Shown here piece after piece: positions 29,685 through 33,923 of a stretch of 64,000 bases of DNA. The stretch comes from Gammaproteobacteria bacterium (GTDB lineage: Bacteria > Pseudomonadota > Gammaproteobacteria > UBA5861). Made by a program: the position numbers and the translations under genes. Below the pieces are notes generated by a model. That model saw nothing but the letters and a program-made list of their open reading frames with translations, was not told the DNA's origin and did no database searches. The stretch spans positions 1 through 64,000 of the forward strand of contig JAKSCV010000108.1 of assembly GCA_022360445.1 (NCBI GenBank). The letters run 5' to 3'. The number at the start of each line of letters is the position of its first letter. The stretch's first letter is position 1.

Positions 29685-30218
29685 TTGGATGAAGCGACTC
29701 GGCGGCATTATCTTGCTCTACTGGAGATTCCCCTATGGGTTGCCCGCGACCAGCATGCAGAGTTGCCGCCTGAAGTTGGAGTGGAACCTGTCAGCGATGA
29801 ACAGGGGTGGGGACTATGCTGTCAAACGATTGATGAACACGTCCTGGGACCACTGGTGCTCTTTGAAATTCAAGCGCCTGATGAGCCCACAACATTAGCT
29901 TTTTTACAGGGAAAACAACGGACACTCCTAACAGCCATGTTATCGAGTATTGGTCAGTTGTTGGATGGCCTCAGCTATGGCACTGCCTCTTTTGCTCCAC
30001 TTGGCTCAACATCGGCATCACTTCCGCCTGAAAAAACGGGTGTTGTCTTCGTTCGGCCCCGTGATCTTGAGAAGCTAGGCGTACCATGTGGAGATGACAT
30101 TATTATAGGGGGGGTGCCTTGTTTAACCTGTTGGCACCCTGCGTATTTACTGGAAAATCCTATGGAAAAGCGCCAGGCGTGGGCTGTTATGCAGCGCTTA
30201 GCCGGTCGTTGTGGATAG
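29685..30218 (+). CDS. putative DNA polymerase III psi subunit (HolD-like)
   Basis: A 177-residue protein encoded just before, and overlapping by 8 bp, rimI. In E. coli and pseudomonads the gene at this place encodes the psi subunit of the clamp loader, which links to SSB through chi. The sequence is poorly conserved, so position is the main argument. The C-terminus (CWHPAYLLENPMEKRQAWAVM) closely resembles the last motif of family-4 uracil-DNA glycosylases. The rest of the protein lacks the FeS Cys set and the GEAPG active-site loop of those enzymes. TTG start at 29685 with AGGA nearby; it is the only in-frame candidate near the leuA end. Confidence 0.55.
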   Translation: MDEATRRHYLALLEIPLWVARDQHAELPPEVGVEPVSDEQGWGLCCQTIDEHVLGPLVLFEIQAPDEPTTLAFLQGKQRTLLTAMLSSIGQLLDGLSYGTASFAPLGSTSASLPPEKTGVVFVRPRDLEKLGVPCGDDIIIGGVPCLTCWHPAYLLENPMEKRQAWAVMQRLAGRCG

Positions 30219-30693
30219 TCACAATGTACAAGTCCGTAAAATGCAGTGGGCTGATTTGCCTTCTGTTTATCGTATCGAACAAGCCAGCTATTCTCACTCC
30301 TGGAGCGAGAAAATGCTTCGGGATAGTCTTCGATCGAATGACTATTGCTTCGTGGCCGAATGGCTGGGTGCCGTTTGTGGTTACCTGATATCTATGTCGG
30401 CTGTGGATGAATTACATCTTCTTAATATCTGTGTCCGGCCTGATGTGCAGCAAAGTGGGTGTGGCAAGCAGTTGCTCGAAGCTCTGTGTTCCAAGGCACA
30501 AGCTTCAGGGATGAGCCTGATTCTCCTCGAAGTCCGCGTCTCAAATACTGCGGCGCAACGGCTATATCAGAACTTTGGGTTTGAATATATCGGAACACGA
30601 AAGAATTATTACCCCGCAACGACTGGGCGTGAAGACGCTCTTGTCATGAAATTGACCTTGTCACCTGAAGTCAATGTGACTCAGTGCCGATAA
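30211..30693 (+). CDS. rimI: ribosomal protein S18 alanine N-acetyltransferase
   Basis: GNAT-family enzyme that acetylates the N-terminal alanine of S18. The 160-residue protein has the acetyl-CoA motif NICVRPDVQQSGCGKQLLEAL, the RVSNTAAQRLYQNFGFEYIGTRKNYYP segment diagnostic of RimI, and DALVMKL at the end. GTG start inside the last codons of the upstream gene, implying coupled translation. Confidence 0.93.
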   Translation: MDSHNVQVRKMQWADLPSVYRIEQASYSHSWSEKMLRDSLRSNDYCFVAEWLGAVCGYLISMSAVDELHLLNICVRPDVQQSGCGKQLLEALCSKAQASGMSLILLEVRVSNTAAQRLYQNFGFEYIGTRKNYYPATTGREDALVMKLTLSPEVNVTQCR

Positions 30694-32414: not shown

Positions 32415-33923
32415 ATGGGGTTATATGACTACACCCTATACAGCGTTTTCGAGCGGAATGCCAAAGTGCATGGCAACCGGGACGCTTGGGTATGTGGGGA
32501 ACAGCGGCTCACACACAAGCAATATCTCGAAGAAGTCAACAAGCTCGCCAAAGGCTTATTGGAGCAAGGTATAAAAAAGGGCGACCGGATTGGCATACTG
32601 GCCCAGAACTCCATCGAATACGCCTTACTCTACGGCGCTTGTGCCCAAACCGGCACCATTTTATTACCGGTCAATTGGCGTTTACAGGCAGAGGAAATCG
32701 AATACATCATCGGTGATGCTACTCCTACCATCATGTGTGCTGGAGAAGAGTTCCAGGAGCAGGTGAGCGCCCTGGCTGAAAAGAACAATCTCACTGGTAA
32801 GTGCTATGCCATTGGTGAGGCCAAAAGCGGCTTCAAACCTTTCAGCAGCCTGCTGGATAACGATGGTGAATGTCCGGCAATTGATGTTGCCGCCACAGAT
32901 GATTACCTCATCATCCACACCGCCGCAGTGGGCGGCCACCCACGGGGTGCCACTTTATCCCACCAGGGTCTGATCGTCTCCAACCTCCAGTCAACCGCTT
33001 ACTGGCACTTCAGCCCAGACGATTGTCACCTCATTCTCTTGCCACTTTTTCATCTTGCCGGCTTGGGTATGATGCTTTCTGTCAACCATGCAGGTGGGAG
33101 AAACGTCATCATGGCGAAGTTTGAGCCCGATACTGTGCTCAACCTCATCGAACAAGAAAAAGTCTCGGCCTTTGGCACCTTCCCACCCATTCTGCAAACC
33201 CTCTTGGATCTTAATGAAAAGCTCAAGCGAGACATCTCCAGCCTGCGGGCACTGAGCGGATTAGAGCCTCCAGAAGTGGTTAAAAAATACGAAGAACTGA
33301 CTGGTGGTACCTTCTGGACGGCGTTTGGGCAAACAGAAACCTCGGGCTTTGTCACCCGCGCCCCCTATTTTGAGCGCCCCGGATCCGCAGGTACGCCCAG
33401 CATTGCCGCTGAAGTGGAAATCATGGACGAAGAAGGCAACATCCTGCCACCAGGACAAACAGGTGAAATCGTTGTACGCGGCCCCATGGTCTTTAAAGGC
33501 TACTGGAACCTGCCTGAAGATAATGCACATACCTTTCGGTTTGGCTGGCACCACACCGGTGACAAAGGCAAATTTGATGAAGACGGTTACCTTTTCTACA
33601 TGGGCCGAATGCCAGAAAAAGAACTCATCAAACCCGGTGGTGAAAACGTTTACCCGGCTGAAGTCGAGCAAACCCTGTGCGAGCACGCATTAGTCAAAGA
33701 AGCCTCTGTGATCGGCGTGCCCGACAGCAAATGGGGAGAAGCCATTAAAGCCATTTGTGTCCTGGAAGCCGGCGCTACACTGGACAAAGCGGAACTCATT
33801 GAGTTCGTTGCCAGCAAAATTGCCCGCTACAAAAAGCCTCACCATGTGGAATACGTCGAGGCCTTGCCCAAGCTTGAAGATGGTGAAATTGATCGGGATA
33901 AAGTCAAAGCCGAACACGGGTAA
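32415..33923 (+). CDS. AMP-dependent acyl-CoA ligase-like protein with altered ATP and Lys motifs
   Basis: A 502-residue member of the ANL (adenylate-forming) superfamily. Conserved parts include FGQTETSG, HHTGDKGKFDEDGYLFYMGR and KPGGENVYPAEVE. Two core motifs differ from canonical enzymes. The ATP loop reads TAAVGGHPRG at 169-178 instead of TSGTTGxPKG. The C-terminal catalytic Lys of the GKI motif is Glu491 (GEIDR). Related sequences with these changes occur as a subfamily annotated as fatty-acid ligases, so activity is possible but unproven. An AAGGGG site precedes the ATG. A tatD gene follows after a hairpin. Confidence 0.8.
   Translation: MGLYDYTLYSVFERNAKVHGNRDAWVCGEQRLTHKQYLEEVNKLAKGLLEQGIKKGDRIGILAQNSIEYALLYGACAQTGTILLPVNWRLQAEEIEYIIGDATPTIMCAGEEFQEQVSALAEKNNLTGKCYAIGEAKSGFKPFSSLLDNDGECPAIDVAATDDYLIIHTAAVGGHPRGATLSHQGLIVSNLQSTAYWHFSPDDCHLILLPLFHLAGLGMMLSVNHAGGRNVIMAKFEPDTVLNLIEQEKVSAFGTFPPILQTLLDLNEKLKRDISSLRALSGLEPPEVVKKYEELTGGTFWTAFGQTETSGFVTRAPYFERPGSAGTPSIAAEVEIMDEEGNILPPGQTGEIVVRGPMVFKGYWNLPEDNAHTFRFGWHHTGDKGKFDEDGYLFYMGRMPEKELIKPGGENVYPAEVEQTLCEHALVKEASVIGVPDSKWGEAIKAICVLEAGATLDKAELIEFVASKIARYKKPHHVEYVEALPKLEDGEIDRDKVKAEHG

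Follow-up and report, generated by a model that had tools for sequence, protein, structure and literature searches.

The gene at positions 29685..30218 (forward strand) of the window, as we call the whole 64,000-nucleotide stretch analyzed here, very likely encodes a psi (HolD)-type clamp-loader subunit that arose from a decayed family-4 uracil-DNA glycosylase (UDG4). Its product shares both ends and its gene position with UDG4s and psi proteins and its predicted fold with UDG4s, graded intermediates connect these two families, and the degenerate forms are associated with the presence of Ung. A preliminary description of this DNA had suggested a glycosylase ancestor for this psi lineage, with the catalytic and FeS parts of the fold lost since. 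The UDG-like fold, the graded intermediates, the profile comparisons, and the Ung distribution described below support that origin, and the last three also point to such an origin for psi beyond this lineage.

The gene, a probable degenerate UDG4, encodes 177 amino acids from a TTG start (stop included in the coordinates), within a 193-aa open frame that contains no ATG, GTG, or TTG upstream of this start. As seen in the sequence, it lies directly upstream of rimI (30211..30693, forward strand, GTG start), a frequent neighbor of UDG4 and psi genes in the class, and overlaps it by 8 nt, so that the overlap given in the preliminary description is borne out; this is the position of a psi gene, and in E. 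coli K-12 holD and rimI overlap by 32 nt. The gene order at the locus is presumably ilvC, pssA, leuA, the window gene, and rimI, the first three having been named by sight.

Next, the protein can be divided into a peptide, a linker, and a core. The N-terminal peptide TRRHYLALLEIPLWVAR (residues 5 to 21; 29697..29747, forward strand), delimited by profiles and carrying Glu in place of the usual Gly, is a putative clamp-loader anchor by analogy with E. coli psi. The YLxAMGIxxW start is common to the UDG4s of the class and to psi, and HYLALLEIPLWVAR of the window protein fits YLxAMGIxxWxxR, the N-terminal motif of the class UDG4s. A profile of intact-UDG4 N termini matched the window protein with an E of 6.7e-7, indicating that this end is also UDG4-like, a point absent from the preliminary description, and the psi N-terminal profile matched residues 5 to 22 (E 0.015), which identifies a psi-type peptide at the sequence level. 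The peptide is followed by a probable flexible linker (residues 22 to 46; 29748..29822, forward strand), with a mean pLDDT of 54, 48, and 66 in the blocks of residues 21 to 30, 31 to 40, and 41 to 50.

The UDG-like/psi-like core spans residues 47 to 177 (29823..30215, forward strand). The UDG motif A (..IIGEAPGxxED) is replaced by the remnant LVLFEIQAPDE (residues 57 to 67; 29853..29885, forward strand), in which FEIQAPDE stands at the place of the absent GEAPGxxED. The four FeS cysteines of UDG4 are absent as well, the aligned positions being C, I, a gap, and S. Conserved features include the core helix LLTAMLSSIG (residues 81 to 90; 29925..29954, forward strand), comparable to LLNAMLxAIG of UDG4, and the C-terminal UDG4 motif HPAYLLENPMEKRQAW (residues 151 to 166; 30135..30182, forward strand), which parallels HPAYLLRSPxEKRKAW of the class UDG4s. 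The latter begins with HPAYLL at residues 151 to 156, corresponding to the UDG4 HPxxLL, and its Lys and Trp are kept in most psi proteins. The UDG4-like C terminus, which had been noticed before, is thus confirmed; the match is weak for the single sequence and above chance once relatives are included, as judged by hhalign against shuffles.

Family models applied to the single sequence gave little signal. TIGR00758 matched residues 144 to 173 (E 0.011; 15.4 bits, below the curated cut-off of 125.3), while Pfam at E up to 10 returned neither UDG nor psi and no meaningful match, and the psi models (PF03603, NCBIfam) at E up to 10 did not match either. A single-sequence PDB search returned an unrelated ABC transporter alone (E 0.62). 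There was no match in the viral contigs searched, and a plasmid search returned 11 Azospirillum records with UDG-like pieces.

To our knowledge, descriptions of E. coli psi give an alpha/beta fold and no link to UDG. The AlphaFold model of the window protein (pLDDT 75.8, pTM 0.65), built from an alignment that contained UDG4s and E. coli psi, placed family-4 UDGs first in Foldseek (1ui1, E 1.8e-5, probability 1.00). Aligned with VIA-align, residues 47 to 177 superimposed on 1ui1 with a Z of 9.7 (rmsd 3.6, 122 residues), and residues 51 to 177 on the psi chain 3sxu_B with a Z of 7.1 (rmsd 3.1, 99 of its 102 residues), a value below 8 that can reflect a common arrangement. The model of a Pfam-psi protein over the cut-off (L041; pLDDT 88.6), whose alignment lacked intact UDG4s and included E. 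coli psi, also ranked a UDG4 at the top, namely 1ui0, with a Z of 12.2 over 122 residues at 26% identity (Foldseek E 4.4e-6). With psi chains 3sxu_B and 1em8_B, this model reached a Z of 8.1. Argonaute MID domains reached a Z of 7.5 to 7.9 against the L041 model and 5.8 in the window-model comparison, and unrelated chains outranked psi in the Foldseek search with the L041 model. Since the psi values are barely above those of the Argonaute domains, it is sequence and position, more than structure scores, that link the protein to psi. PDB searches with profiles of intact UDG4s only (A2) or degenerate forms only (A3) also count against this link: they returned UDGs, and psi chains were absent at E up to 10. 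Overall, the predicted fold of the window protein is UDG-like when checked against UDG4 and psi, and the unrelated fold that the preliminary description had named as grounds for rejection did not occur.

Profile comparisons were then used, with hhalign E-values that refer to single comparisons. The profile of 13 psi proteins against 59 intact UDG4s reached a probability of 98.7 (E 4e-16), and psi against UDG4 without the N terminus reached 96.7 (E 3.5e-10). The window protein against the 59 intact UDG4s gave 97.5 (E 8e-12; score 76.5, the highest of 60 column shuffles being 24.8); without its N-terminal peptide it gave 95.4 (E 1.7e-8; score 58.2, shuffle maximum 23.9), and against psi it gave 90.7 (E 1.2e-6). 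In each of these five comparisons, the real score was reached by 0 of 60 column shuffles. Pfam searches of 50 alignment members at E up to 0.01 recognized UDG in 41 and psi in 21, with no match for the window protein, so that at least 13 members match both families. These results bear on the possibility that psi is a Rossmann-like protein of separate origin, the window lineage having merely gained UDG4-like ends from a UDG4 gene through recombination or convergence. The direct similarity between the window protein and UDG4 is strongest at the C-terminal end and the psi structural matches are modest, as such a history would predict, and the description of E. coli psi mentioned above counts in the same direction. 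Nevertheless, the core-only comparisons are strong (96.7 for psi and 95.4 for the window against UDG4, with 0 of 60 shuffles), UDG4 structures match along the whole core, and the gap is filled by degenerate full-length UDG4s, which makes this history highly improbable.

The N-terminal peptide gave reciprocal matches. At E < 0.1, the psi N-terminal profile matched 57 of 59 intact UDG4s, 0 of 59 reversed sequences, and 0 of 2093 other ORFs. Because the 59 had been picked partly by patterns including an N-terminal motif, the test was redone on the 30 best-scoring UDG4 loci of the class, whatever their N terminus, and the N-terminal profile of the 13 psi proteins matched 29 of these 30 at E < 0.1 and 27 of them at E < 0.01; the single miss, L074, came from a slice that had been cut too short. 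Conversely, of the 14 proteins made up of the window protein and 13 psi proteins, the UDG4 N-terminal profile matched 13 at E < 0.1. It also matched 2 of 2093 decoys, L085 and L125, which were frames upstream of rimI with psi-like ends.

To describe the locus across the class, 377 genomes with a completeness of 95% or more were sampled. Chi was found in 332 of them, rimI in 335, UDG4 in 308 (261 over the cut-off), and Pfam psi at E up to 0.01 in 23 (19 over the cut-off). Five of the 23 psi matches (L047, L048, L050, L052, and L054) were UDG4 proteins whose N terminus alone aligned with psi positions 2 to 28; by hand tally, among the other 18 genomes an over-cut-off UDG4 was present in G229 alone, in a 524-aa frame. 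A UDG4 or psi gene lay directly upstream of rimI in 22 of the 30 best UDG4 loci (26 of which had rimI), in 24 of the 30 best rimI loci, in 16 of the 23 Pfam-psi loci, in 19 of 24 and 10 of 10 loci of further sets, and in 25 of 30 loci from a search of chi-bearing genomes without an over-cut-off UDG4. Two results count against the proposed origin: among loci picked for lacking a good UDG4, a detected UDG or psi stood beside rimI in 11 of 20, and the psi/degenerate profile had no match in 31 of the 80 chi-bearing genomes without an over-cut-off UDG4. Two of these 80 (G115 and G171) really carry an intact UDG4 with an intein-like insert.

The gene upstream of rimI grades from intact UDG4 through degenerate forms to psi. 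The series includes four-Cys UDG4s without the active site (L095, L099, L101, L105, L113, and L118 to L120), FeS-less forms with the HP motif (the window protein, L037, L038, L041, L042, and L126), and, at its end, classic psi (E. coli, L033, L036, and L051). The genome of L126 was considered as a possible Pseudomonas and rejected, as it belongs to Granulosicoccaceae. In a residue alignment of 50 rows (24 intact, 25 degenerate/psi, and the window protein), the L, G, I/V, and W of the N-terminal peptide were kept in all 25 degenerate/psi rows, and the C-terminal K and W each in 24. All four cysteines were kept in 13 of the 25, and 10 of these 13 lacked GExP, suggesting that loss of the active site tends to precede loss of the FeS site.

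Two long frames upstream of rimI, L085 and L086 (G142 and G352; family f140; 296 and 392 aa), carry RRAYLDAMQVASWLPR and a C-terminal KAELWKALRR, and appear to be long psi-like proteins with proline-rich linkers, possibly of the Pseudomonas type. Their hhalign probabilities were 37 and 14 against UDG4 and 56 and 62 against psi, weak values that count against a common origin, and no NCBIfam model matched L085 or L128. In the intact UDG4s of G115 (L196) and G171 (L201), the reading frame is extended by a large intein-like insert placed precisely at the third FeS Cys (KC/CRPP). The insert starts with CLRYN and ends with VVHN before the Cys, and its DGTL and FMDDG stretches are as in LAGLIDADG inteins.

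The genome that holds the window was also searched. The preliminary description had named a separate, clear holD elsewhere in the genome as evidence against the psi assignment, and no other psi was detected in this 98%-complete genome with PF03603 at E up to 10. Chi is encoded on contig C87 (E 9e-43) with W57 and F64 kept, as expected of a psi partner, and Ung on contig C63; there is no over-cut-off UDG4. The only other UDG4-profile match is a 193-aa protein (CQTC, IIGQAPG) on contig C27 (L001, 1351-1932, reverse strand), which looks like another family of the UDG superfamily. That catalytic and FeS residues are gone and that the gene overlaps rimI by 8 nt would also fit a UDG4 pseudogene in decay that has no clamp-loader role and persists only through this overlap. 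We regard this as very unlikely, because the frame is open in a genome with such a chi and no other psi found, and because the ends are kept across the 25 degenerate/psi rows and in a second species of the genus, whose two readable parts are 84% and 76% identical to the window gene.

Loss of the glycosylase features coincided with the presence of another uracil-DNA glycosylase. Among 38 genomes carrying a degenerate or psi form, 36 had an over-cut-off Ung match, compared with 1 of 42 genomes carrying an intact UDG4 (Fisher p 3e-19, uncorrected for ancestry), the two groups having been fixed before the Ung search and spanning, by hand tally, 22 and 37 family codes, respectively. Degenerate/psi forms were judged from sequences, and some (e.g., in G057, G172, and G305) still score over the TIGR00758 cut-off; intact forms were those over this cut-off with GExP, G020 being judged by score alone, the third Cys being Ser in G027 and G031, and L050 (G204, GEAPGNEEE) counting as intact here and as degenerate in the residue alignment. 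Since the intact group consists of the best UDG4 matches plus one further locus set, it is not representative of all lineages, and the Ung sample includes very little of the betaproteobacterial ones. The 36 matches include one with internal stop codons (G261) and one cut by a contig end (G175). Two degenerate forms without Ung, in G077 and the 1.1-Mb G040, count against the association; the sole intact-UDG4 genome with Ung, G336, has the FeS loop KCRPADDR, and G017 has a sub-cut-off Ung match. Within families f33 (G033 and G305) and f65 (G371 and G172), one genome has an intact UDG4 without Ung and the other a degenerate form with Ung. On a tree of 69 RimI proteins, from which 11 of the 80 genomes were left out (10 loci without rimI, and G020), parsimony gave 11 intact/degenerate changes and 12 Ung changes, with 11 independent contrast pairs on the unsupported best tree and 1 on supported branches; with a single supported contrast, the tree is too weak to count independent events. 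Judging from the Ung distribution, psi probably originated in lineages where Ung had rendered catalysis by UDG4 redundant, with UDG4 kept for its putative clamp-loader role.

As described in the consulted part of a review, the psi N terminus binds domain III of the tau subunits in E. coli, and chi binds SSB (PMC3290774). By analogy, the N-terminal peptide of the window protein would dock on the tau/gamma collar, and the flexible linker would join it to a UDG-fold core that, without FeS cluster or active site, would hold chi, which in turn would bind SSB. Intact UDG4s of the class bear this peptide as well and are mostly encoded upstream of rimI; on the simplest account, a UDG4 with a clamp-loader anchor may already have been a component of the fork. 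Once family-1 Ung had become responsible for removing uracil, the active site of UDG4 would have decayed, then the FeS site, and then much of the core, with the N-terminal peptide and the C-terminal helix retained, so that the scaffold stayed. The broadest form of this proposal, in which UDG4 is the ancestral psi, an active FeS enzyme that bridges the DnaX collar and chi-SSB and couples uracil scanning to replication before its Ung-driven decay to the psi of E. coli, Pseudomonas, and the window, has in our judgment an even chance of being correct.

Such a role of intact UDG4 may account for the missing psi of chi-bearing bacteria. Chi is known in alpha-, beta-, and gammaproteobacteria and psi in gammaproteobacteria only, according to the section of the review consulted, where it is left undecided whether psi has diverged past recognition or chi binds tau directly (PMC3290774); a chi with a conserved psi site and no psi is noted in an excerpt of an earlier report (PMC3197488). 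According to the portion of PMC8378479 consulted, F64 and W57 of chi lie buried at the contact with psi. Both residues were kept in all 31 aligned chi proteins (that of the window genome and the 30 best-scoring), and 28 of those 30 came from genomes with an over-cut-off UDG4 (hand tally); this conservation is supportive only, because the site is also used by YoaA.

A further alternative bears on the extension to intact UDG4, and not on the descent of psi. In this view, intact UDG4 uses its N-terminal peptide to bind some other partner, or for no binding at all, and psi adopted the peptide later, intact UDG4 never having been in the clamp loader. Among 30 UDG4 loci of a phylum sample, the psi N-terminal profile matched one at E < 0.1 (L206, of the same class), and at E < 1 it matched 0 of 27 UDG4 loci of other classes. 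The N terminus of these other-class UDG4s differs, yet chi is present in 26 of the 27 genomes, which would fit late adoption. Within the class, however, the psi profile matches 29 of the 30 best-scoring UDG4s and chi W57 and F64 are kept in 31 of 31, with the YoaA caveat, and we consider late adoption rather unlikely. The UDG4s outside the class (L208 to L235) have N-terminal motifs of their own, YLREIGVQTP, FYxEAGVD, and YLExSGIPML, to which the psi profile is blind; the first two had been spotted by eye and were not supported by this profile. In several of them (L209, L210, L213, L219, L229, L233, and L235), the usual CxxC and KC cysteines are absent (FDGCALK.., AWRPPGNR) and GEAPG and HPxxLL are kept; these may resemble the FeS-free BdiUNG (5gn2), which appears among the structure matches of L041.

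Compared with known systems, the window protein shares with E. coli psi (HolD; PF03603, TIGR00664; 1em8, 3sxu, and 3gli) an xxLxxLGIxxW-type N-terminal peptide, the rimI overlap, and a basic residue (R in E. coli) plus W in the C-terminal helix; its core may have the psi fold as well, given the modest match of the model with 99 of 102 residues of 3sxu_B. In contrast to E. coli psi, it is longer (177 versus 137 aa), keeps the UDG4 HPAYLL and the motif A remnant, and is unrecognized by the Pfam and NCBIfam psi models. Psi of Pseudomonas is described as highly divergent in the part of PMC8879598 consulted, and that of P. aeruginosa (HolD, PA4679) is, like the window protein, divergent, longer, missed by ordinary homology search, and flexible in its N-terminal part, according to excerpts of PMC8879598 and PMC3197488; L085 and L086, possibly of the same type, align weakly with UDG4. 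With family-4 UDGs (TIGR00758; Thermus 1ui0, Sulfolobus 4zbx), the window protein shares the core fold, HPAYLL, and the LLxxMLxxIG helix, whereas their FeS cysteines and GEAPGxxED are both lost. The Thermus, Thermotoga, and Sulfolobus PDB chains align from profile position 53 to 59 on and, as deposited, thus lack the N-terminal peptide.

Among the best matches in the open-licence PMC literature, we found no published link between psi and UDG. Vaccinia D4 and the gammaherpesvirus UNG are precedents for the principle, being glycosylases that serve as structural parts of replication (PMC1936997, PMC5934625), as proposed for psi; they are viral, have other partners, and are presumably independent cases. 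Should psi be an inactivated UDG4, and should intact UDG4 bear the same anchor, the puzzle of chi without psi becomes testable. The proposal, if true, would also describe how a replisome subunit arose, as an enzyme turned into a scaffold by way of graded intermediates, and would tie base-excision repair directly to the bacterial fork.

We also observed, elsewhere in the window (32415-33923, forward strand), an acyl-CoA-synthetase-like protein with the unusual nucleotide-binding motif HTAAVGGHPRG, the common motif of these enzymes being TSGTTGxPKG.
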